Source: Bordetella genomosp. 7 (GTDB lineage: Bacteria > Pseudomonadota > Gammaproteobacteria > Burkholderiales > Burkholderiaceae_B). Taken from it: 64,000 nt of DNA. The translations under genes and the position numbers were made by a program. A model generated the notes under the pieces. The model saw nothing but the letters and a program-made list of their open reading frames with translations. It did not search any database and was not told the DNA's origin. Shown here piece after piece: positions 5,133-47,490 of this stretch (the stretch's first letter is position 1; every line of letters starts with the position of its first letter). The stretch lies in contig NZ_NEVK01000006.1 of the NCBI RefSeq assembly GCF_002261265.1, positions 558,001-622,000 on the forward strand. Direction: 5' to 3'.

Positions 5133-6158
<1,026 letters not shown>

Positions 6159-8386: not shown

Positions 8387-9118
8387 ATGTCCTTGCCGCG
8401 TTTTTTCTGTGAAGCGCCCCTTTCGGCCGGCGCCCGCCTGCTTCTGCCGGCCGCGCTGGCGCACCATGCCGTACGCGTGCTGCGGCTGCGCGACGGCGCG
8501 CAGATCGTGCTGTTCGACGGCCGAGGCGGTGAATACCCCGCCACGCTGCACACCGAAGGGAAAGACGCCTGGGCGCTGCTGGGTGCGCACAACCCGCGCG
8601 AGGCCGAACTGGCGGGCCGCGTCGTGCTGGTGCAGGGCCTGCCGGCAAGCGACAAGATGGACTGGGTCGTGGAAAAAGCGGTAGAGCTGGGCGCCTGCCG
8701 GGTCAGCCCCATTGCCGCGCAGCGCAGCGTGCTGCAACTGTCCGGCGCGCGGCTGGAAAAGCGCCTGGCGCATTGGGCGCGCGTGGCGCAGGCCGCCTCG
8801 GAGCAATGTGGCCGCAACCGCGTCATGGCGGTCGACGCCCCCACCGACCTGCGCACCTGGCTGGAGCAGCCATGCGACGGCGTGCGCCTGCTGTGCCACC
8901 CCGAGGCCGTGCCCAGCCTGCCCGAGGCGCTGGCCGGACACACGGGGCTTGAGCAGGTCAGCCTGCTGGTGGGTCCCGAAGGGGGGTGGTCGGACGAAGA
9001 ACTGGAACTGGCCGCGCACCACAATGTGCTGGCCGTGCGCTACGGGCCGCGCGTGCTGCGCACGGAAACCGCAGGGCTGGCGCTCATCGCGGCCACGACT
9101 GCCCTGCTCGGATGGTAG
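8387..9118 (+). CDS. rsmE: 16S rRNA (uracil1498-N3)-methyltransferase RsmE
   Basis: A 243-residue SPOUT-class methyltransferase that methylates U1498 of 16S rRNA. An N-terminal PUA-like domain (LPRFFCEAPL, HHAVRVLRLRDG) precedes the SPOUT knot with KMDWVVEKAVELG, RWARVA-like LAHWARVAQAASEQCGRN and the SAM-loop signature LLVGPEGGWSDEEL, then LGPRVLRTETA-like YGPRVLRTETA. I chose the ATG at 8387, because MSLPRFF aligns with the family start; the ATG at 8378 is 3 codons longer and possible. No clear ribosome-binding site. It is transcribed toward repeat locus 2 and the barstar gene. Confidence 0.95.
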   Translation: MSLPRFFCEAPLSAGARLLLPAALAHHAVRVLRLRDGAQIVLFDGRGGEYPATLHTEGKDAWALLGAHNPREAELAGRVVLVQGLPASDKMDWVVEKAVELGACRVSPIAAQRSVLQLSGARLEKRLAHWARVAQAASEQCGRNRVMAVDAPTDLRTWLEQPCDGVRLLCHPEAVPSLPEALAGHTGLEQVSLLVGPEGGWSDEELELAAHHNVLAVRYGPRVLRTETAGLALIAATTALLGW

Positions 9119-20289: not shown

Positions 20290-23010
20290 TCAGGCGCCGT
20301 GCAGGGCAACCATGCGGCGCACCTCGGGCAGGCACGAGCCGCAGCCGGAGCCGCAGCCCAGGCGGTCTTTCAATTGGGCAACGTCCATGCCGGATTCGAT
20401 GCCCGACCGGATGGCCGCTTCGCTGACGCCGACGCAGGCGCAAACGGTGCGCGTTCGGGGAGCGGCCGGCGCGCGGGCCATCAGCAAGTTGGCCAGGCTG
20501 GCCGGCGCCGCTCCCCCTTCGGCCCATGCCATCAGCCCGTCGTGGGCCCGTACATCGCCGGCCAGCATGAAGGCGCCCGGCGCATCGGCGCCGGGCGCCT
20601 CGACGGCCAGCCGCACGCGCCGCACAATGCCGCGCGACACATCGTCGAAGGCGGCATCGGGCTGGTCGAGGCCCAACGCTTGCGCCAGCGCGTCCACCAC
20701 GTGAGACGGTGCGGGCGCGGCGGCGGCCAGCCGCAGGCGCACGCCCGGCCCTGCCGCGCAAGGCAGCAGCGCCGCATACTCGAAGCCCCGCAGCCATGGC
20801 GCCAGTTGCGCGCGCAACACCGCCGTGTCGCCTGCCACCCAGGCCATGGCTTGCCAGGGCAGGCGCGCCGGCGCCACCGCCACGGCCGCGTGCTTCAGCT
20901 CGGGCTGGCGCGAAACGGGATCGCGGGCGGAGTTGGTCAGGGCGTTGATGCCGTGGCCGCCCATGTACGCGCTGCCCCAGTGCATGGGCAGGAAGGCGTG
21001 GCCCGGCCTGACGGTGTCGTCCGGCCGCACGGGCAACACGATGGCGCCGCGCCGGGAACGCACCCGCACCAGCGCGTGCGGCTCGAGCTTCAGCCGCTGC
21101 AGGTCCAGCGGATGCAGCGACAGCCAGGGCTCTTCCACATGCCGCGTCAGCACGGGGGCCATCGCCGTGCGCGTCAGCGAATGCCAATGGTCGCGCAGAC
21201 GGCCCGTCGTCAGGCGCAGCGGATACTGCGCCGATACTGCCTCGGCCGTGGGCGTATAACCAGTGTCGTAGAACTGCGCGCGCCCGTCAGCAGTGGGGAA
21301 ACGCCCGTCGGCGTACAGGCGCGCCGTCCCGCTGTCGCCGCGGTACGGCCACTGCACCGGGCCCGTACGCTCGAGCAGGGCGTAGTCGATCCGGCTGTAG
21401 TCCAGGTCGCGCCCAGCGGTCATGCGGGCATGCTCTGCAAACACGGCCGCCGCATCCGGGTATTGAAACAGCGGCGCTTTTTCGGGCGCCACCAGCCTGG
21501 CCAGCCGGCGGGCCACCGAGGCGGCCAGTTCCCAGTCCGGCCGCGCGTCGCCGGGCGGCGCGATGGCGGCGCGCACACGACTGATGCGGCGCTCGGAATT
21601 GGTCAACGTGCCGGACTTCTCGGGCCAGGTTGCGGCCGGTAATACCAGGTCTGCGTACGCCAGCGTTTCGGTTCCGGCATAGGCCTCCTGCACGATGACG
21701 AATTCCGCCTTCTGCAATGCCGCCCGCACGCGCGCCTGGTCGGGCAGGGACTGGGCCGGGTTGGTCGCGGCGATCCACAGCACCTTGATGCGCCCTTCCA
21801 GCACTGCGTCGAACATCTCGAGCGCGGGCGTGCCCGGGCGGGACGGCAGGCTCGGCACCGACCACAGGCCGGCGACTTCGCCGCGATGGTCCGCGTCGGC
21901 CGGATCGCGATGGCCCGGCAGCAACGTCGCCATGCCGCCCGCCTCGCGCCCGCCCATCGCATTGGGCTGGCCGGTCAGCGAAAACGGCCCCGCGCCGGGT
22001 TTGCCGATCTGCCCCGTGGCCAGGTGCAGATTGATCAGCGCGCCATTCTTGGCGGTGCCGCTGCTGGATTGATTCAACCCCATCGTGTAGACCGACAGCG
22101 CCGCGCCGGCCTGGCCGAACCAGCGGGCCGCCTGCACGATGTCGGCCGCAGGCACGCCGCACACATCCTGCGCGGCGCGCGGCGTGTATTCGTGCACGCG
22201 CGCCTTCAGCGCGTCGAAGCCCCGGGTATGGTCGGCGATGTAAGAGGCGTCGACCAGGCCTTCCCAGACCATGACGTTGAGCATGGCATGAAACAACGCA
22301 ACGTCGGTGCCGGGCAAGATGGGCAGGTGCAAGTCGGCCAACGCCGCCGTATCGGTGCGACGCGGGTCCACCACCACGATCTTCATGCCGGGGCGCGCCG
22401 CCTTGGCCGCCTCCAGGCGCCGGAACAACACCGGATGCGCATACGCCATATTGGACCCGGCGATCAGCACCGTGTCGGCCAGTTCCAGATCGTCGTAGCA
22501 CGCCGGCGGCGCATCCGCGCCCAGCGTGAGCTTGTAGCCCGACACCGCGCTGGACATGCACAGCCGCGAATTCGTGTCGATATTATTGGTGCCCACAAGC
22601 GCACGGGCCAACTTGTTGAAAACGGCATAGTCTTCGGTGAGCAACTGGCCCGACAGATAGAAGCCCACCGCGTCGGGGCCATGCATGTCTAGCGTGGCCG
22701 CCAGCTTGCCGGCTGCCAGGTCGAGTGCGTTGTCCAGCGAAACCGGCATGCGCTCGCGCCCCCGCTCGGGCCGCCACTCGGCCTGCAGCACGCGCGCGGT
22801 GTCGCGCCGCACCGTGTCGGCCAGCGCCAGCCCCTTGCTGCACAGGCGGCCGCGGTTGGCCGGATGCTCCGGGTCGCCCTGCACCGCGATCACGCGGCCG
22901 TCCTTGGCGGTGACACGCACGCCGCAGCCGGTGCCGCAATAGCAGCATACCGAGGCCACCGTGCGTTCGCCGGCGGCCCCGGACTCGTGATGGTGCCCAG
23001 ATGCGCTCAT
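20290..23010 (-). CDS. nasA: Assimilatory nitrate reductase, molybdopterin catalytic subunit
   Basis: A 906-residue cytoplasmic Mo-bis-MGD enzyme reducing nitrate to nitrite for assimilation. The N-terminal [4Fe-4S] Cys cluster is CCYCGTGCG; RLCSKG, the MGD-binding regions and the molybdopterin C-terminal domain (RLTTGRLRDHWHSLTR) follow. It ends in a BFD-like [2Fe-2S] domain, CACVGVSEAAIRSGI with LGCGSGCGSCLPEV, as in NasA/NarB types fed by ferredoxin or a reductase. Starts at the ATG at 23010, since the codons upstream overlap nirD. Last gene of the nitrate operon. No separate NasC reductase gene is here. Confidence 0.95.
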   Translation of the reverse strand: MSASGHHHESGAAGERTVASVCCYCGTGCGVRVTAKDGRVIAVQGDPEHPANRGRLCSKGLALADTVRRDTARVLQAEWRPERGRERMPVSLDNALDLAAGKLAATLDMHGPDAVGFYLSGQLLTEDYAVFNKLARALVGTNNIDTNSRLCMSSAVSGYKLTLGADAPPACYDDLELADTVLIAGSNMAYAHPVLFRRLEAAKAARPGMKIVVVDPRRTDTAALADLHLPILPGTDVALFHAMLNVMVWEGLVDASYIADHTRGFDALKARVHEYTPRAAQDVCGVPAADIVQAARWFGQAGAALSVYTMGLNQSSSGTAKNGALINLHLATGQIGKPGAGPFSLTGQPNAMGGREAGGMATLLPGHRDPADADHRGEVAGLWSVPSLPSRPGTPALEMFDAVLEGRIKVLWIAATNPAQSLPDQARVRAALQKAEFVIVQEAYAGTETLAYADLVLPAATWPEKSGTLTNSERRISRVRAAIAPPGDARPDWELAASVARRLARLVAPEKAPLFQYPDAAAVFAEHARMTAGRDLDYSRIDYALLERTGPVQWPYRGDSGTARLYADGRFPTADGRAQFYDTGYTPTAEAVSAQYPLRLTTGRLRDHWHSLTRTAMAPVLTRHVEEPWLSLHPLDLQRLKLEPHALVRVRSRRGAIVLPVRPDDTVRPGHAFLPMHWGSAYMGGHGINALTNSARDPVSRQPELKHAAVAVAPARLPWQAMAWVAGDTAVLRAQLAPWLRGFEYAALLPCAAGPGVRLRLAAAAPAPSHVVDALAQALGLDQPDAAFDDVSRGIVRRVRLAVEAPGADAPGAFMLAGDVRAHDGLMAWAEGGAAPASLANLLMARAPAAPRTRTVCACVGVSEAAIRSGIESGMDVAQLKDRLGCGSGCGSCLPEVRRMVALHGA

Positions 23011-23056
23011 ACCATGCCTGCCTTGTAGGGATAAAGAGTCTGCGATGCGGTCCGCG

Positions 23057-23383
23057 TCATACCTCCAGGTACACCGCGGCTCCATCCACTTTGATCGGCA
23101 CGGTCTGCACGCACCCCTCGTCGGGCGCCTGCGCGCTGCCGGTGGCCAGATCCAGCACCCAGCCGTGCAAGGGGCACGACACCGACCGGCCATGCACCAG
23201 CCCGGCCGACAGCGGGCCGCCCTTGTGCGGACAGCGGTCTATGACTGCGAACACCTCGTTGTCGCTGGTGCGAAAGACGGCGATGTCGTCCTGTCCCTCG
23301 CGCCGCAGCACGCGGGCGCCTTGCACCGGGATTTCTTCGATATGGCAGATGCTGCGCCACTGGCAGGTTTCGGCTGGCTGCAT
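23057..23383 (-). CDS. nirD: Nitrite reductase small subunit NirD (Rieske-type)
   Basis: A 108-residue small subunit with an intact Rieske fold: CPHKGGPLSAG and CPLHGW, the two Cys-His pairs for a [2Fe-2S] cluster. This is not universal: the E. coli NirD lacks them. The start is the ATG at 23383, 8 bases after the nirB stop, giving the same length as E. coli NirD; a GTG at 23395 would overlap nirB and add 4 codons. It lies between nirB and nasA, so the operon makes both reductases together. Confidence 0.93.
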   Translation of the reverse strand: MQPAETCQWRSICHIEEIPVQGARVLRREGQDDIAVFRTSDNEVFAVIDRCPHKGGPLSAGLVHGRSVSCPLHGWVLDLATGSAQAPDEGCVQTVPIKVDGAAVYLEV

Positions 23384-23391
23384 GTCGGGTC

Positions 23392-25830
23392 TCACAGGGT
23401 CAGGGATTGAAATTCACGGGCGGCAGGGGCGGCGGCGCGACGCTCTTCCCATGGGTCGGCTTCGAACGACAGCGCAAATTTCAGGCGCGCATAGAGTTCG
23501 GCGCGATTGGCCGCGTCGTCGACCACCCGCGCCTTGGCATGGTCCAGCCCCACGCGCGCCAGGTAGTGCACGGTGCGCTCCAGGTAAAAGGCTTCTTCGC
23601 GATATAGCTGCAGAAATGCGCCGCAGTACTCCAGCACTTCATCCGCGGTCTTCACCTTGGCGAAGAACTGCGCCACTTCGGTCTTGATACCGCCGTTGCC
23701 GCCCACGTACAGTTCCCAGCCTGATTCCACGGCGATGATGCCGATATCCTTGATGCCCGATTCGGCGCAATTGCGCGGGCATCCCGACACGGCAAGCTTT
23801 ACCTTGTGCGGGCTCCACATGCCCACCAGGTCTTTCTCCAGGGCGATACCCATCGCCGTGGAATCCTGGGTGCCGAAGCGGCAGAACTCGCTGCCCACGC
23901 ATGTCTTGACCGTACGCAGGCTCTTGCCGTATGCATGCCCCGAAGGCATGTCGAGGTCGGCCCACACGTGCGGCAAGTCTTCTTTCCTGACGCCCAGCAG
24001 GTCGATGCGCTGGCCGCCCGTGACCTTCACCATCGGAATCGCATACTTGTCGGCAACGTCGGCAATGCGGCGCAGTTCAGATGGGTTGGTCACGCCGCCC
24101 CACATCCGGGGCACCACGGAATACGTGCCGTCCTTCTGGATATTGGCGTGCATGCGTTCGTTGGCCAGCCGCGACTGATTGTCATCGCGCGCCTCGCCAG
24201 GCCAGGTAGAGATCAAGTAATAGTTCAGGGCCGGTCGGCAGGTGCTGCAACCGTCGGGCGTGCGCCATTCCATGAAATGCATGGCGGCCGCGATCGTGAC
24301 CAGATGGTGATCACGTATGGCCTTGCGCACTTCGCCATGCGTCAGGTCCGTGCAGCCGCATAGCGCTTTCTCGGATTTCGGCTTGACATCGGCCGCGCCG
24401 CCCACACAGTTGATGAGGATCTGCTCGACCAGTCCGCTGCACGATCCGCAGGAACTGGCCGCCTTGGTGTGCTTCTTGACTTCGTCGACCGTGAACAGGC
24501 CCTTGTCGCGAATGGCCTTGACGATCGTGCCCTTGCACACCCCATTGCAGCCGCAGACTTCCGCTGTGTCGGCCATGCCGATGGCGCGATTCTCCCCGGC
24601 GTGGCCGGTGTCGCCGCCAATGGCGCTTTCGCCGAACATGAGCTGGTCGCGCAGCGCGTCGATGCGCTTGCCCTCGCGGATCAGCCGGAAATACCACGCG
24701 CCGTCGCCGGTATCTCCGTACAGGCACGCGCCCACCAGCTTTTCGTCTTTAAGCACCAGTTTCTTGTACACGCCGCCCACGGGGTCGGCCAGCGTGATTT
24801 CTTCCGTACCCGGTCCGCCCATGAAATCGCCGGCCGAGAACACATCGATGCCCGTGACCTTGAGTTTGGTCGAAGTCACGCTGCCCTCGTAGCGGCCGAT
24901 GCCGTACAGGGCCAGGTGGTTCGCCGCCACTTTAGCCTGTTCGAACAGCGGCGCCACCAGGCCATAGGCGGTGCCGCGATGGCAGACGCATTCGCCCACC
25001 GCGTAAATGAGCGGGTCGTAGGTTTGCAGCGTATCGCTGACGACGATGCCGCGGTTGACGTACAGCCCGCAGGCCTGCGCAAGTTCGGTATTGGGCCGGA
25101 TGCCCACGGCCATGACCACCAGATCGGTCTCGACCTCGTCGCCGTCGGCAAAGCGCACCGCGCGCACCCGCCCCTGTTCGTCACCCAACAGCGCCTCGGT
25201 CTGGCGCGGCATCAGGAACTTCAGGCCGCGCGCTTCCAGACTGCGCTGCAGCAGCAAGGCGGCCTTGGGATCCAGCTGGCGATCCAGCAGGCCCGACCCC
25301 AGGTGCACGACGTTCACGTCCATGCCTCGCGCCGCCAGGCCGGCGGCCGCTTCCAGCCCCAGCAGGCCGCCGCCTATCACGACCGCGCGCTTGTGCACGC
25401 GCGCAGCCTCGATCATCAGGTTTACATCGCGGATGTCGCGAAACGTGACCACACCGTCGAGATCCTTGCCGGGGATGGGCAGGATGAACGGGTTCGAGCC
25501 GGTGGCCAGCAGCAGCCGGTCATAGGGCACCTGGCTGCCGTCCTCGCCCAGGACGGTGCGCCGCGCGCGGTTGATGCTGGTGACCTTGCAGTTCAGGCGC
25601 AGGTCGATGCCGTTGTCGCGGTACCACGCTTCGTCATTGAGAACGATGTCCTGCACGGTTTGCTCGCCGGTCAACACGGGCGACAGCAAAATGCGGTTGT
25701 AGTTGGGATACGGCTCGGAACCGAACACCGTGATGTCGTACAGATCCGGAGCCAGCTTCAGCAGCTCTTCCAGCGTGCGCACACCGGCCATGCCGTTGCC
25801 GACCATTACCAGCTTCAACTTCTTTTCCAT
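23392..25830 (-). CDS. nirB: Nitrite reductase [NAD(P)H] large subunit
   Basis: An 812-residue cytoplasmic siroheme/[4Fe-4S] enzyme reducing nitrite to ammonium with NADH. The N-terminal pyridine-nucleotide oxidoreductase half has VMVGNGMAGVRT and GGGLLGLEAA. A BFD-like [2Fe-2S] domain follows (CGCNGVCKGTI, SSCGSCSGLV), then the siroheme half with TCVGSEFCRFG and SGCPRNCAESGIKD providing the cluster Cys. Length is typical (about 810-850). GAGAGAGA lies just before the ATG. Siroheme comes from CysG, encoded at 29857-31272 beyond nasT. Confidence 0.97.
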   Translation of the reverse strand: MEKKLKLVMVGNGMAGVRTLEELLKLAPDLYDITVFGSEPYPNYNRILLSPVLTGEQTVQDIVLNDEAWYRDNGIDLRLNCKVTSINRARRTVLGEDGSQVPYDRLLLATGSNPFILPIPGKDLDGVVTFRDIRDVNLMIEAARVHKRAVVIGGGLLGLEAAAGLAARGMDVNVVHLGSGLLDRQLDPKAALLLQRSLEARGLKFLMPRQTEALLGDEQGRVRAVRFADGDEVETDLVVMAVGIRPNTELAQACGLYVNRGIVVSDTLQTYDPLIYAVGECVCHRGTAYGLVAPLFEQAKVAANHLALYGIGRYEGSVTSTKLKVTGIDVFSAGDFMGGPGTEEITLADPVGGVYKKLVLKDEKLVGACLYGDTGDGAWYFRLIREGKRIDALRDQLMFGESAIGGDTGHAGENRAIGMADTAEVCGCNGVCKGTIVKAIRDKGLFTVDEVKKHTKAASSCGSCSGLVEQILINCVGGAADVKPKSEKALCGCTDLTHGEVRKAIRDHHLVTIAAAMHFMEWRTPDGCSTCRPALNYYLISTWPGEARDDNQSRLANERMHANIQKDGTYSVVPRMWGGVTNPSELRRIADVADKYAIPMVKVTGGQRIDLLGVRKEDLPHVWADLDMPSGHAYGKSLRTVKTCVGSEFCRFGTQDSTAMGIALEKDLVGMWSPHKVKLAVSGCPRNCAESGIKDIGIIAVESGWELYVGGNGGIKTEVAQFFAKVKTADEVLEYCGAFLQLYREEAFYLERTVHYLARVGLDHAKARVVDDAANRAELYARLKFALSFEADPWEERRAAAPAAREFQSLTL

Positions 25831-25858: not shown

Positions 25859-26692
25859 TCAAGCTTCGGCGGCGGCCGGCGCGGCGGCGGCCGCTGCCGC
25901 CGGGTTGCCATGGCGGCGATGCAGGAAATCAACCACCGCCGCGCGGCATGCCAGGTAGCCCGGGTGCGAGGCCAGCGCCAGCCGGTCGCGCGGGCGCGGC
26001 AGCGGCACATCCAGCACTTGCCCGATGGTGGCCGCGGGGCCGTTGGTCATCATCACAATGCGGTCAGACAGCAACACGGCCTCGTCCACATCGTGCGTGA
26101 CCATGATGACGGTGCTGTGCGTGGCCGCCACGATCTTGAGCAGTTCGTCCTGCAGGTGCGCGCGCGTCAGCGCGTCCAGCGCGCCAAACGGCTCGTCCAT
26201 CAGCAGCACCTGGGGTTCGATGGCCAGCGCGCGCGCAATACCCACGCGCTGCTTCATGCCGCCCGAGATTTCGCCGGGCAGCTTGGCGCTGGCATGCGCC
26301 AGGCCCACCAGTTCCAGCGCGGCATGAGTGCGCTCGGCCAGGCGCGCCTTGCTTTCCCGTGCCCCGAACACGCGTTGCACGGCCAGGTGCACGTTCTGGT
26401 AGCAGCTCAGCCAGGGCAGCAACGAATGGTTCTGGAACACCACGGCGCGGTCCGGCCCGGGCCCGGTGATTTCCCGCTCCGCGCACAGCAGCACGCCCTC
26501 GGTGGGAAGCGTAAGCCCCGCCACCAGGTTCAGCAGGGTAGATTTGCCGCAGCCGGAATGGCCGATCAGCGAAACGAATTCGCCCTGCGCCACGGCCAGG
26601 TCGATATCGCGCAAGGCCACGAAGCGGCCGCGGGAGGTTGCGAAGGTCTGCCCCACGCCCTCGATACGCACGAATTTCTGCATGATGTTCAT
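25859..26692 (-). CDS. nrtD: Nitrate ABC transporter ATP-binding protein
   Basis: A 277-residue ATPase of the NrtD/SsuB/TauB group. The Walker A GHSGCGKSTL, the Q-loop, the signature ISGGMKQRVGIARAL, the Walker B VLLMDEPFGALDA and the H-loop VTHDVDEAV are complete. The start is the ATG at 26692, overlapping the permease stop (ATGA, 26689-26692), so translation is coupled. The long open frame upstream lies inside the permease gene. The C-terminus is Ala-rich (about 15 residues), as seen in other members. It energises the NrtAB transporter. Confidence 0.94.
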   Translation of the reverse strand: MNIMQKFVRIEGVGQTFATSRGRFVALRDIDLAVAQGEFVSLIGHSGCGKSTLLNLVAGLTLPTEGVLLCAEREITGPGPDRAVVFQNHSLLPWLSCYQNVHLAVQRVFGARESKARLAERTHAALELVGLAHASAKLPGEISGGMKQRVGIARALAIEPQVLLMDEPFGALDALTRAHLQDELLKIVAATHSTVIMVTHDVDEAVLLSDRIVMMTNGPAATIGQVLDVPLPRPRDRLALASHPGYLACRAAVVDFLHRRHGNPAAAAAAAPAAAEA

Positions 26693-27516
26693 TCCTCGCT
26701 GTAGGCAAAGCGCCGCGCCAGCCGCACCAGCATGGTTTCCAGGGCGAGCCCCACGATGCCGATCAGGAAGATGGCCACGACAATGTGCTCGACCTTCAGG
26801 TTGTTCCATTCATCCCACAACCAGAAGCCCACGCCGGTGCCGCCGGTCAGCATCTCGGCCGCCACGATGACCAGCCACGCCGTGCCGATCGACAACCGCA
26901 CGCCAGTAAGAATGTGCGGTAGCACCGACGGCAGCAGCACCTTGGTCACCACCTGCCATTCGGACAGGTTCAGCACGCGGGCGACGTTGAGGTAGTCTTG
27001 CGGCACACGCGCCACGCCCGCCGCGGTGTTGATCACCATGGGCCAGATCGAGCAGATGAAAATCGCCCAGATGGCGGCCGGGTCGGCTCCCCGGAACAAG
27101 AGCAGGCCCAGCGGCAGCCACGCCAGCGGCGACACCGGACGCAGCAGGCTGACGATGGGCGCGAACATGGCATTGGCCGCGGCATACCGGCCCATCACAA
27201 AGCCGGCAGGAATGCCCACCAACGCGGCCAGGCCGAAGCCGATGCCCACGCGCCGCAACGACGCCAGCACGTTCCAGCCTATGCCCCGGTCGTTGGGCCC
27301 GTTGTCATAGAACGGGTCCGCAAACAAGTCGCGCGCGGCGGCCCAGGTGGCCCCGGGGGTGGGGATCTCCGGCACCAGCAGCGCAATGGCCTGCCAGACC
27401 AATACAAACAGGGCAAAGCCCGCCACAGGGCCGGCAACCGCGCGCAACAGTGCATCGGCTGCGTCGCGGCAGGCCGCGGCGTCAGGCATTGAAGAGAACA
27501 GGGTCGTGGTGCGCAT
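26689..27516 (-). CDS. nrtB: Nitrate ABC transporter permease
   Basis: A 275-residue inner-membrane permease of the NrtB/SsuC type with about six predicted helices (for example AGFALFVLVWQAIALLV and VAIFLIGIVGLALETMLV). The EAA-like loop IWAIFICSIWPMVINTAAGVA and GTAWLVIVAAEM match the family. The ATG at 27516 has GAGGAAG 8 bases upstream. It lies 10 bases after nrtA and is coupled to the ATPase. Confidence 0.93.
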   Translation of the reverse strand: MRTTTLFSSMPDAAACRDAADALLRAVAGPVAGFALFVLVWQAIALLVPEIPTPGATWAAARDLFADPFYDNGPNDRGIGWNVLASLRRVGIGFGLAALVGIPAGFVMGRYAAANAMFAPIVSLLRPVSPLAWLPLGLLLFRGADPAAIWAIFICSIWPMVINTAAGVARVPQDYLNVARVLNLSEWQVVTKVLLPSVLPHILTGVRLSIGTAWLVIVAAEMLTGGTGVGFWLWDEWNNLKVEHIVVAIFLIGIVGLALETMLVRLARRFAYSEE

Positions 27517-27526
27517 GGCAGCTTCC

Positions 27527-28801
27527 TCAGGCCTTGATGCTGAACGCGTCGGCATACGCGGCGGGGTCCGCGCCGTCCCAGCGCACCCCGTCCATCAGCA
27601 CCGACTGCCGCATTTCGCTGGCAGGCAGCGGCGCGCCGGCGGCGGCCGCTGCCTGCCGGTAGATATCGATGCGATTGATGGCGCCAGCCACCGCGCGGTA
27701 GTCGGGATGCGTTTTCAGCAAGCCCCAGCGCTTATGCTGCGTCAGGAACCACATGCCGTCGCTCAGATAGGGAAAGCACGCCGCGCCGTCGGCATAGAAG
27801 CGCATGGGATGCGCGTCGTCCCAGGTCTTGCCCAGCCCGTCCGTATAGCGGCCCAGCATGCGGTCCACGATGGCGTCGGCCGCCGTGTTCACGTACGATT
27901 TGGCCGCAATCGTCTCGGCCGTCTTGCGGCGGTTGGCCGGCGAGGCATCTATCCACTTGCCGGCCTCGATAATTGCCGCGGTCACCGCGCGCGCGGTGTT
28001 GGGGTGCGATGCCACGAACTCGCCGGTCGCGCCCAGTACTTTCTCGGGATGGTCGGCCCAGATCTGTTGCGTGGTGGCCGCCGTGAAGCCGATGCGATCC
28101 ATGATCGCGCGGGCGCCCCAGGGTTCGCCCACACAGAAGCCGTCCATGTTGCCCACCCGCATGTTGGCCACCATCTGCGGCGGCGGCACGGTGATCACGC
28201 GCGCATCGCGCATGGGGTCGATACCGTACGCGGCCAGCCAGTAATACAGCCACATGGCGTGCGTGCCGGTGGGGAACGTCTGCGCATAGGTATAGGCCCG
28301 CTTTTCGGCCTGCATATGCTTGTGCAGCGACTCGCCGTCGGTCACGCCGGCTTCGTGCAATTTGGACGACAGCGTAATCCCCTGCCCGTTCTGGTTGATG
28401 CCCATCAGCACAGCCATGTCTTTGCGCGGGCCGCCGATGCCCAGGTGCACGCCGTACACCAGCCCGTACAGCACGTGGGCGAAATCAAGTTCGCCATTAA
28501 TGAGCTTGTCGCGCACGCCGGCCCACGAGGCTTCCTTGGACGGCACGATTTTCACGCCGTGCTTTTTGTCCAGGCCCAGCACCGACGCCATCACGACCGA
28601 GGCGCAATCCGTCAAGGGAATAAAGCCGATGCGCACTTCGGCCTTTTCGGGCGCGTCGCTGCCGGCGGCCCAGGCGCCTGCCCGCACCAGCGGGTCGACC
28701 AGGCCCAGCAAGCCGGCGCCCGCCACGGCTTTCGCGGCGCTGCCCAGCCAGTCACGTCGCCCGGTATTGGTGATGTCGGTCTTGCCAGGCTTGTTTCGCA
28801 T
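27527..28801 (-). CDS. nrtA: Nitrate-binding protein NrtA (Tat-exported)
   Basis: A 424-residue periplasmic nitrate/nitrite receptor of the NrtA/CmpA family. The N-terminus is a twin-arginine signal (GRRDWLGSAAKAVAGAGLLGLVDPL). The mature domain begins KAEVRIGFIPLTDCASVVMASV and carries the typical FPTGTHAMWLYYWLAAYGIDP and CVGEPWGARA. The start is the ATG at 28801, after GAAGAGG; an intrinsic terminator and ANTAR-type hairpins lie just upstream. The longer open frame upstream is leader sequence, not protein. The signal argues for transport, not for a cytosolic NasS sensor role. Confidence 0.95.
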   Translation of the reverse strand: MRNKPGKTDITNTGRRDWLGSAAKAVAGAGLLGLVDPLVRAGAWAAGSDAPEKAEVRIGFIPLTDCASVVMASVLGLDKKHGVKIVPSKEASWAGVRDKLINGELDFAHVLYGLVYGVHLGIGGPRKDMAVLMGINQNGQGITLSSKLHEAGVTDGESLHKHMQAEKRAYTYAQTFPTGTHAMWLYYWLAAYGIDPMRDARVITVPPPQMVANMRVGNMDGFCVGEPWGARAIMDRIGFTAATTQQIWADHPEKVLGATGEFVASHPNTARAVTAAIIEAGKWIDASPANRRKTAETIAAKSYVNTAADAIVDRMLGRYTDGLGKTWDDAHPMRFYADGAACFPYLSDGMWFLTQHKRWGLLKTHPDYRAVAGAINRIDIYRQAAAAAGAPLPASEMRQSVLMDGVRWDGADPAAYADAFSIKA

Positions 28802-28813
28802 AAAGGCCTCTTC

Positions 28814-28867
28814 AAAATAAAAAAACGTTCCGCGCCGCCGGGGTTTTCCCGTCGGATCTGCAGAACG
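28814..28867 (-). terminator. Intrinsic terminator in the nrtA leader (NasT-controlled attenuator)
   Basis: On the minus strand, CGTTCTGC pairs with GCGGAACG, then CCG with CGG and CGGG with CCCG around an AAAAC loop, and TTTTTTTATTTT follows at 28825-28814. The 5' arm (28867-28860) overlaps the 3' arm of hairpin P2, so only one can form. This is the layout of ANTAR antitermination. The U-run ends just before the nrtA ribosome-binding site. Confidence 0.85.
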
Positions 28868-28923
28868 CCGTTGTTCAGGATTGCGCGCCGACACCGTCGG
28901 CCAGGCGACCGCCGTTGGCCGCC
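28863..28923 (-). promoter_or_regulatory. ANTAR two-hairpin antiterminator RNA upstream of nrtA
   Basis: P1, 28923-28904: stem GGCGGCC/GGTCGCC (7 bp, one G-U) with hexaloop AACGGC. P2, 28876-28863: stem GAAC/GTTC with the same hexaloop AACGGC. Both loops carry A at position 1 and G at position 4, the bases recognised by ANTAR proteins. Between them a third hairpin, GCCGAC-GGT-GTCGGC, is possible at 28901-28887. P2 shares bases with the terminator's 5' arm. The adjacent nasT encodes the likely ligand. Confidence 0.85.
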
Positions 28924-28936
28924 ATGCAGAGACTTA

Positions 28937-28952
28937 AGCAAAGTCCATGCCA
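28937..28952 (-). promoter_or_regulatory. Sigma-54 promoter for the nrtA operon
   Basis: Minus strand TGGCATGGACTTTGCT against the consensus TGGCACRNNNNTTGCW differs only in C to T in the -24 block. The spacing of GG (-24) and GC (-12) is exact. The predicted start is near 28926, about three bases before antiterminator hairpin P1, so the transcript would begin with P1. NtrC-like sites lie upstream at the expected distance. Confidence 0.8.
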
Positions 28953-28993: not shown

Positions 28994-29010
28994 CGAGCCA
29001 CTTTGGTGCG
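28994..29010. promoter_or_regulatory. NtrC-like enhancer site, proximal
   Basis: The plus-strand 17-mer CGAGCCACTTTGGTGCG matches 10 of 14 specified bases of TGCACCAnnnTGGTGCA, including a complete right half TGGTGC. Its centre lies about 76 bases upstream of the predicted sigma-54 start and 32 bases (three helical turns) from the distal site. Confidence 0.55.
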
Positions 29011-29025
29011 CGATGCATTGCGCAA

Positions 29026-29042
29026 TGCACCATTTGCGTGCC
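29026..29042. promoter_or_regulatory. NtrC-like enhancer site, distal
   Basis: The 17-mer TGCACCATTTGCGTGCC matches 11 of 14 specified bases of TGCACCAnnnTGGTGCA, including the left half TGCACCA. Its centre is about -108 relative to the predicted start, a classic NtrC position. It overlaps the end of a 16-bp perfect palindrome (TGCATTGCGCAATGCA, 29014-29029) that could bind another factor. Confidence 0.6.
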
Positions 29043-29132
29043 GGCTCGCTTTCCCGCGTGCCTTGCGCCCGGCCGGCGCGCGTGCCGTCGCCACGGGCGG
29101 CGTGCGGCCACGCATGGCATGGATATTGCATT

Positions 29133-29149
29133 TCCCTGATGATCAGGGA
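29133..29149. promoter_or_regulatory. 17-bp palindrome over the nasT ribosome-binding site
   Basis: TCCCTGATGATCAGGGA is a perfect inverted repeat (8-bp arms, one central base), 6 bases before the nasT ATG. The right arm contains the AGGGA part of the nasT ribosome-binding site (AGGGAG, 29145-29150). It may be an operator, or an RNA hairpin that hides the ribosome-binding site. No palindromic family was recognised. Confidence 0.5.
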
Positions 29150-29155
29150 GTAGTC

Positions 29156-29752
29156 ATGCTGAAGATCATGCTGTTGAACGATGGGGACGGCCGCGCCGCA
29201 TCACTGCGCGACACGCTGGCGGCGGCCGGCGTGCAGGTGGTTGCCGAGCGTGCGGCCGGCATCGATCTGGCCGAAGCCATCACGCGGCTGGCGCCCGACG
29301 TGGTGCTGATCGATGCGGACGCGGCGGCGCGCGACACGCTCGAAGACATCTGCGTGGCCAGCGAATCCACCGAGCGGCCGGTGGTGATGTTCACGGACGA
29401 CGACAACCGCGAAACCATCCGGGCCGCCCTGCGCGCCGGCGTCGCCGCCTATGTGGTGGGCGCCGTCCCGCCCGAGCGCATCGAACCGCTGTTGACTGTA
29501 GCGATTGAACGCGGGCGGGTCGAGCGGGCGCGCCGCATGGAGCTCGCCGAGGCGCGCCAGCGGCTGGCAGACCGGCAGGCGCTGGAAAAGGCCAAGGGCT
29601 TGCTGATGCAACTGCGCGGGGTCTCTGAAGAGCAGGCGCACCGGCTGTTGCGCGAGCGCGCCATGCAAAGCCGCAAACGGCTGGGCGAGGTGGCGCGCGA
29701 AGTCGTCGACATGGCGCAATGGCTGGGCGCTCAAAGCGGAGGCGGCGCTTAA
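29156..29752 (+). CDS. nasT: NasT-type ANTAR response-regulator antiterminator
   Basis: A 198-residue cytoplasmic RNA-binding antiterminator of nitrate assimilation. The N-terminal half is a receiver-like domain (MLKIMLLNDGD, VVLIDAD). The C-terminal half is an ANTAR three-helix domain: EKAKGLLMQLRGVSEEQAHRLLRERAMQSRKRLGEVA. AGGGAG lies 6 bases before the ATG. It is divergent from the nrtA operon, whose leader has the matching hairpins. The sensor partner NasS is absent from the window; in other bacteria nasS is next to nasT. Confidence 0.93.
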   Translation: MLKIMLLNDGDGRAASLRDTLAAAGVQVVAERAAGIDLAEAITRLAPDVVLIDADAAARDTLEDICVASESTERPVVMFTDDDNRETIRAALRAGVAAYVVGAVPPERIEPLLTVAIERGRVERARRMELAEARQRLADRQALEKAKGLLMQLRGVSEEQAHRLLRERAMQSRKRLGEVAREVVDMAQWLGAQSGGGA

Positions 29753-47198: not shown

Positions 47199-47274
<76 letters not shown>

Positions 47275-47309
47275 GTCGAGGCGAAGTAGCAGTAACGCAG
47301 TAAGTCCAA

Positions 47310-47385
47310 GTCCCCTTCGTCTAGAGGCCTAGGACATCACCCTTTCACGGTGAGTACAGGGGTTCGAATCCCCTAGGGGACGCCA
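47310..47385 (+). tRNA. tRNA-Glu (TTC)
   Basis: A 76-base cloverleaf GTCCCCTTCGTCTAG... with the anticodon stem TCACC/GGTGA around CTTTCAC (anticodon TTC), a T-arm GGTTCGAATCC and an encoded CCA. It follows tRNA-Ala by 35 bases. Confidence 0.97.
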
Positions 47386-47413
47386 GAATTTCTGGCTAGT
47401 AGTAAACCGCTGC

Positions 47414-47490
47414 GGAGCGGTAGTTCAGTTGGTTAGAATACCGGCCTGTCACGCCGGGGGTCGCGGGTTCGAGTCCCGTCCGCTCCGCCA
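47414..47490 (+). tRNA. tRNA-Asp (GTC)
   Basis: A 77-base cloverleaf starting GGAGCGG and ending CCGCTCCGCCA, with anticodon loop CTGTCAC (anticodon GTC). The D-arm AGTTCAGTTGGTTAGA and T-arm GGTTCGAGTCC are typical. It is followed by an intrinsic terminator. Confidence 0.97.

Follow-up and report, generated by a model that had tools for sequence, protein, structure and literature searches.

Here, we present sequence-based evidence that the nitrate-assimilation operon nrtABC-nirB(D)-nasA of Bordetella genomosp. 7 is, as we hold with high confidence, governed by a transcription attenuator that is operated by NasT, the product of the adjoining divergent gene. This reading is carried by the anatomy of the leader, by its conservation and co-variation among relatives, by a single convincing site in the genome and by the drift of NasT in a Bordetella that has lost the switch. 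The leader lies on the minus strand of the window (the whole stretch of 64 kb of DNA that was analysed), in the intergenic region between nasT (29156-29752, plus strand) and nrtA (27527-28801, minus strand). The first gene behind it, nrtA, encodes a nitrate-binding protein (PF13379, 334 bits; best PDB match 2g29 NrtA, 4e-79) with a twin-arginine signal, as read by eye from the translation. On the same strand follow the nrtB permease gene (26689-27555; TIGR01183, 235.8 bits, cut-off 209), the nrtC ATPase gene (25859-26731, start codon provisional; TIGR01184, 337.9 bits), nirB for the large subunit of nitrite reductase (23392-25830; TIGR02374, 932 bits), a probable nirD (23057-23395; 112 aa, named by eye from the list of open reading frames) and a probable nasA for a molybdopterin nitrate reductase (20290-23193; PF00384, PF04879, PF01568 and PF04324), the listed start of which is probably too early. 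NrtC has a single ABC domain and no NrtA-like domain, with PF00005 as the only Pfam match above cut-off. As the initial annotation had proposed, the gene at 29156 codes for NasT, a protein of 198 aa with a receiver-like domain (PF00072, 26.1 bits, below the cut-off of 30.2) and an ANTAR domain (PF03861, 62.3 bits); it matches the structure of EutV (6wsh, 5.5e-19), and cysG comes after nasT. NasT is the sole ANTAR match in its own genome and adjoins the leader. Elsewhere in the window, three tRNA genes stand in a row (47199-47487).

All elements of the leader are on the minus strand. The first hairpin, P1 (GGCGGCC-AACGGC-GGTCGCC; 28904-28923), has 7 bp including one G-U and a stability of -12.5 kcal/mol, and the second, the antiterminator P2 (GAAC-AACGGC-GTTC; 28863-28876), has 4 bp and a nearest-neighbour energy of -1.6 kcal/mol alone or -2.8 kcal/mol with its flanking bases. 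Both carry the same hexaloop, AACGGC, with A1 and G4. The terminator hairpin (28825-28868; -23.0 kcal/mol) has a 9-bp lower stem formed by the 5' arm GCGTTCTGC (28860-28868) and the 3' arm GCGGAACGT (28825-28833), with a U tract at 28819-28825. Terminator and P2 are mutually exclusive, the terminator 5' arm including the entire P2 3' arm and the last two bases of the P2 loop. The positions of the two hairpins, their identical loops and the overlap of the terminator with the second of them had been claimed before and hold on the minus strand; that account did not include the sigma-54-type promoters, the hairpin in the linker or the lack of NasS described below. Given a weak P2 and a strong terminator by nearest-neighbour energies, unbound RNA should terminate. 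Single-sequence folding of the leader yields P1 and the terminator and no P2, which matches the expectation for the unbound state.

Under nitrogen limitation, the sigma-54 promoter would fire and yield an RNA that begins almost at P1. Unassisted, the nascent RNA would fold the strong terminator and transcription would stop before nrtA. Active NasT would be recruited via P1 and would stabilise the weak P2, which would then withhold its 3' arm from the terminator and let the polymerase read into the operon. Antitermination that depends on NasT is very likely, and we infer both the binding of NasT and the read-through. In Paracoccus, NasT binds the nasA leader (PMC3795266), and a change in hairpin I cripples both nasA-lacZ and growth on nitrate (PMC5424462). 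A change in the second hairpin of Paracoccus leaves nitrate-grown expression nearly unaffected, which counts against the model (PMC5424462).

Could the hairpins be chance structure of GC-rich DNA, with a terminator that belongs to another unit? The region is GC-rich, and the fold of the whole leader is unexceptional (z -1.70; 12 of 200 shuffles equally or more stable). Yet a scan of the window for pairs of A..G.. hexaloop hairpins (stems of 4 bp or more) that lie at most 60 nt apart, with an overlapping terminator, returned one site in 64 kb versus five in 200 dinucleotide shuffles (0.025 per shuffled window), and one versus none when identical loops were also demanded. Position, loops and pairing are moreover conserved in 29 leaders, and we give next to no credence to a chance origin. 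Rfam 15 at gathering thresholds has no family match at the leader. A covariance model of the leader (alignment of 27 rows, L045 and L075 left out) finds one convincing site in the window's own genome at 85 bits, the next match scoring 18 bits. We do not believe in extra NasT targets among these next matches (18.1, 17.9 and 16.3 bits; E 0.58 to 1.6). A weak match of the model in another Bordetella, G103 (27 bits, E 0.0046), lies amid unrelated genes in a genome without NasT and is put down to chance.

Conservation was assessed in 29 non-identical Burkholderiales leaders, the window included, which were picked by how far they lie from the NrtA start region, not by pairing, after removal of duplicates and of L108, whose nrtA is cut by a contig end. 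All 29 have A1 and G4 in both loops and the same core of the U tract. The initial annotation had suggested looking for co-varying P1 and P2 stems in relatives, and the stems do co-vary: the 13 pairs of P1 and P2 are formed in 90.2% of 376 cells, six of them are altered on both sides (3.2 in shuffles; 5 of 500 shuffles reach six), and the co-variation score of the 13 pairs, 0.260, is higher than in any of the 500 shuffles (mean 0.165) or slid versions (at most 0.093). Pair types are no more numerous than in shuffles (160 of 500 reach their number), and pairing slid by +3 still has five pairs altered on both sides. One P1 pair is unpaired in 8 of 29 leaders, and the outermost of the six scored P2 pairs is unpaired in 21 of 29, so that this pair has no support. 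The nine terminator pairs are formed in 98.8% of 260 cells, with five altered on both sides; no shuffle out of 500 reaches the paired fraction, the both-side changes or the co-variation score, and 14 reach the number of pair types. Since the aligned sequences are related, these shuffle counts are not probabilities. By its sequence, the leader RNA is a typical and well-formed ANTAR leader.

By a strict scan, the pair of hairpins together with a terminator is present at some place in 61 of the 80 named nasT loci, among them loci of Bordetella, Achromobacter, Advenella, Vogesella and Methylotenera and loci well beyond Burkholderiales. The same scan found no site in the remaining 19, five of which (L135, L136, L149, L150 and L173) yield one in a scan anchored on NrtA; P1 is imperfect in two others (L111 and L113), and neither scan gave a site in L139 and L179, though an NrtA gene adjoins nasT there. 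Nitrate clusters of the Vogesella type (L119-L125) mostly contain two or three ANTAR leaders, for example at 8812, 12124 and 15411 of L121. Within the genus Bordetella, leader and intact NasT co-occur in four of nine genomes, each with NrtA, and another four have neither a credible leader nor NasT.

The ninth Bordetella genome (G123, locus L042) has kept the sigma-54-type promoter and a 7-bp P1 with the loop AACGGC (5280-5640 of the locus) and has lost P2 and the terminator; nirB comes directly after, the locus has no nrtABC, and a search of the genome gave no NrtA. NasT has drifted here. Its dN against the four other Bordetella is 0.207-0.227, two to four times the usual, versus 0.048-0.102 in the other six pairs, while its dS is not raised (0.45-0.59 versus 0.52-0.76). 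In this strain, dN is not raised for CysG or NirB (the CysG of L043 has only 186 residues). The raised dN of NasT, next to unraised values for dS, CysG and NirB, indicates that NasT loses constraint when the switch goes.

The leader is preceded by a sigma-54-type (-24/-12) promoter of nrtA (TGGCATGGACTTTGC; 28938-28952, minus strand), and nasT has a promoter of the same type (TGGCATGGATATTGC; 29115-29129, plus strand). These are the only two strict matches to TGGCAYN5TTGC in 64 kb, and they point away from each other, one towards nasT and the other towards nrtA. With 0.59 matches expected in 64 kb and two or more in 11 of 100 shuffles, the count is uninformative by itself, and the case for the promoters lies in position and conservation. 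TGGCA and TTGC of the nrtA promoter are invariant in 29 of 29 aligned leaders, and of 104 nasT loci, duplicates counted, 79 have a strict match in the 200 nt upstream of the gene. Among 48 leaders, again with duplicates, TTGC and the P1 loop are 18-22 nt apart in 38 and 48-67 nt apart in ten. With the usual spacing between the -12 element and the transcription start of sigma-54 promoters, nrtA transcription is predicted to start at about 28926, some 3 nt before P1, which would then run from about +4. Two genes for sigma-54 (RpoN) are present in the genome (C5:671498 and C4:198997). Between the two promoters lies an inverted repeat (TGGTGC-N17-GCACCA; 29004-29032), a candidate NtrC-type enhancer through which NtrC may act as the activator; a like repeat (N16-18) is found in five of five Bordetella loci examined. 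The pattern GCAC-N7-GTGC, tried as an NtrC signature, was uninformative (eight matches versus 4.6 expected; 12 of 100 shuffles reach eight). A 15-nt palindrome (CCCTGATGATCAGGG; 29134-29148) stands just upstream of nasT and is not at that place in L042. As nasT has a sigma-54-type promoter of its own, the switch and the protein that works it are probably made together under nitrogen shortage. The operon likely follows an AND logic of nitrogen limitation and a NasT signal; a comparable logic of two conditions in Klebsiella is summarised in PMC5424462.

The linker between P1 and P2 is 27 nt in sequence and contains a predicted hairpin (GCCGAC-GGU-GUCGGC; 28887-28901, minus strand) which, if it forms, leaves 12 nt unpaired. 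In the eut leaders of Enterococcus, the linker is 5-12 nt long, and 14 nt or 3 nt drastically lowers induction (PMC3369931); 20 added nt abolish antitermination in vitro (PMC8934654), and the curation rule of PMC8164766 admits 2-25 nt. Since 14 nt already cripples the eut leader, the 27-nt linker counts against the attenuator, unless the linker hairpin shortens it. Linkers were compared in 71 leaders in which both loops begin with AA, stems have 4 bp or more, the terminator scores 15 or higher and the linker does not exceed 45 nt, rules under which the choice of P1 can be ambiguous (as in L133). They range from 2 to 34 nt and, unlike those of eut, have 20-34 nt and a predicted hairpin in 27 of the 71. 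Every linker of at least 20 nt folds (27 of 27), and all except one leave at most 16 nt unpaired, whereas 17 of the 44 shorter linkers are too short to fold and a hairpin is predicted in six of the other 27. Because long sequences also fold by chance, linkers were tested against shuffles of the same composition. The 27 long linkers have a mean of -8.7 kcal/mol versus -4.6 shuffled, with p<0.05 in 16; the 27 short ones, as control, have -0.57 versus -0.29, with p<0.05 in three. In a separate test of 16 of the 27 long linkers, the mean z is -2.05 and the combined p 1.3e-9, in relatives that are not independent, and nine of the 27, hand-chosen as one per clade, give a combined p of 3.8e-7. Individually, the window hairpin is not better than shuffles (p 0.16-0.18), p also exceeds 0.1 in L101, L116, L128, L164 and L176, and three of four Bordetella are not significant alone. 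The linker stems differ in sequence between clades, GC-rich and AT-rich alike, which suggests that in long-linker leaders the hairpin is an adapter that holds the two loops close.

How NasT itself would be switched is less easily read from its receiver. NasT could be a normal phospho-receiver under an unlinked histidine kinase, as EutV is under EutW, and the receiver fold and Asp54 are indeed present in the window protein. However, the conserved receiver lysine (K in the YLVKPL of EutV) is Gly in all 13 NasT rows of the protein alignment, the acidic pocket of the window NasT has Asn in place of one of its two residues, and Asp54 is Ser in four loci (L049, L064, L070 and L071) that keep the leader and the nrtA promoter and have no strict nasT promoter. 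With the lysine replaced by Gly and Asp54 by Ser in these loci, the receiver does not look phospho-switched, and we consider control by a kinase quite improbable. The RNA contacts of EutV, R142, K143, K147 and Y164 (PMC8934654), align with R140, Q141, K145 and H162 of NasT (offset-two numbering, own reading; the four letters fit). K143 and Y164 thus differ in the window NasT, a point against the model; Gln141 is invariant in the 13 aligned NasT, which sets this group apart from EutV, and position 162 is His or Tyr.

In Paracoccus, NasT is held by NasS, a cytoplasmic protein resembling NrtA, until the latter binds nitrate (PMC3795266). NasS was not found in the genome of the window, the sole NrtA homologue at E<=1e-6 being the Tat-signal-bearing product of nrtA itself. 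Seven other PF13379 matches in this genome reach at most 96 bits, versus 250-311 bits for three NasS-like proteins of relatives, and look exported (signals by eye); the same homologue search detects NasS where it is present (131-435 bits). A survey of the family covered 151 genomes, 24 of which have a full NasT (G008 and G131, with 64.9 and 63.5 bits and the ANTAR half only, were dropped). NasS lies beside nasT in nine of the 24 and not in 15. Among these 15, nine lack a further NrtA homologue at E<=1e-30 and six possess one or two, in five of the six a paralogue of 36-37% that aligns from residue 15-22 and thus includes the signal region; G135, also among the six, has an NrtC-fused NrtA-like domain as well. 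In the 40 genomes behind the named loci, which include MAGs of unstated completeness and share at least one genome with the family survey (G164 = G096), a single NrtA match at E<=1e-15 was found in 30, and in two of these (G169 and G173) that match is the NasS-like protein itself.

The gene neighbourhood of nasT was compared over 94 non-duplicate loci (ten duplicate loci had been removed before this count and those of the 71 leaders and 27 linkers). nrtB without NasS occurs in 74, NasS without nrtB in ten, both in three and neither in seven, five of the latter at contig ends. The NasS set of 13 was assigned by hand from N-termini and position, and as the loci come from the family search and a scan seeded mostly with NasT of the NrtABC type, the proportions are biased toward nrtB without NasS. 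In this biased sample, nasT is mostly beside either NasS or NrtABC and seldom beside both. In the Methylotenera genome G172, nasT is present twice (L132 and L136), with a NasS-like protein next to one copy and nrtABC next to the other, and in V. oryzae (L125) a NasS-like protein takes the place of nrtABC beside nasT. The NrtC encoded in L083 (699-2945) ends in a fused NrtA-like domain, like cyanobacterial NrtC, in a genome whose nasT has no adjoining NasS.

Nitrate is the signal that we infer for NasT. Alternatively, NasT may be free and always active, and the leader would let the amount of NasT gate the operon and relay nitrogen limitation with no nitrate switch. This alternative concerns the signal only and is compatible with the leader model; we regard it as a real possibility of rather less than even weight. 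It fits a genome in which no NasS was found, a nasT with its own sigma-54-type promoter and the constitutive nas expression of Paracoccus without NasS (PMC3795266). An attenuator that is always relieved should tend to vanish, yet it is kept with co-variation and well beyond Burkholderiales, and the trend toward mutual replacement of NasS and NrtBC beside nasT, seen in a biased sample, would be left unexplained. It is tempting to propose instead, speculative and on balance unlikely as this is, that NasT is run without NasS, that the nitrate transporter serves as the sensor and that the linker hairpin is a geometric adapter which keeps the loops within the reach of NasT. In its specific version, the Tat-exported NrtA, which would fold in the cytoplasm first, would bind NasT as a precursor and release it on meeting nitrate, doing the job of NasS before export. 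In a looser version, the idle NrtBC complex would hold NasT. The drifted NasT of L042 does not separate leader from transporter as what keeps NasT in place, because nrtABC has been lost there as well.

The system shares its parts with known ANTAR systems. As in the eut leaders and EutV of Enterococcus, two A1/G4 hexaloop hairpins, the second overlapping an intrinsic terminator, go with a receiver-ANTAR protein (PMC3369931, PMC8934654). Like NasS-NasT of Paracoccus denitrificans, it combines a NasT of receiver and ANTAR domain, leader hairpins before nitrate-assimilation genes and general nitrogen control (PMC3795266, PMC5424462), and like NasR/nasF of Klebsiella a nitrate-assimilation operon, an ANTAR protein, leader attenuation and Ntr control (PMC3369931, PMC5424462). 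It differs from the P. denitrificans system in that the search for NasS in this genome came back empty and in that nasT and the nrtABC operon are divergently oriented. A NIT nitrate-sensing domain is part of the same chain in Klebsiella NasR, whereas a Pfam scan of the window NasT finds none. A NIT-domain search of the whole genome gave no match and is uninformative, as the control genomes gave none either. What sets the surrounding system apart from described NasS-NasT systems is that no NasS is detectable; its linkers, in turn, point to a spacing adapter. ANTAR-leader matches in Burkholderia and upstream of nitrate/nitrite transporters are already in PMC3369931. In a literature search that covered few subscription papers and none of the supplementary tables (those of PMC3369931 among them), we found no account of ANTAR leaders from Bordetella or Achromobacter, nor one of a NasT that lacks NasS or of a hairpin between P1 and P2.

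The leader extends a known mechanism to Bordetella and its relatives, and L042 offers a Bordetella NasT that drifts after the loss of its target. Two questions raised in PMC8934654 are touched by the linker hairpins, the need for both hexaloops and the constrained spacing between them. Many Betaproteobacteria seem to run NasT without NasS, which raises the question of how the nitrate signal enters the system, and the tendency of NasS and NrtABC to stand in for each other beside nasT points to the transporter.
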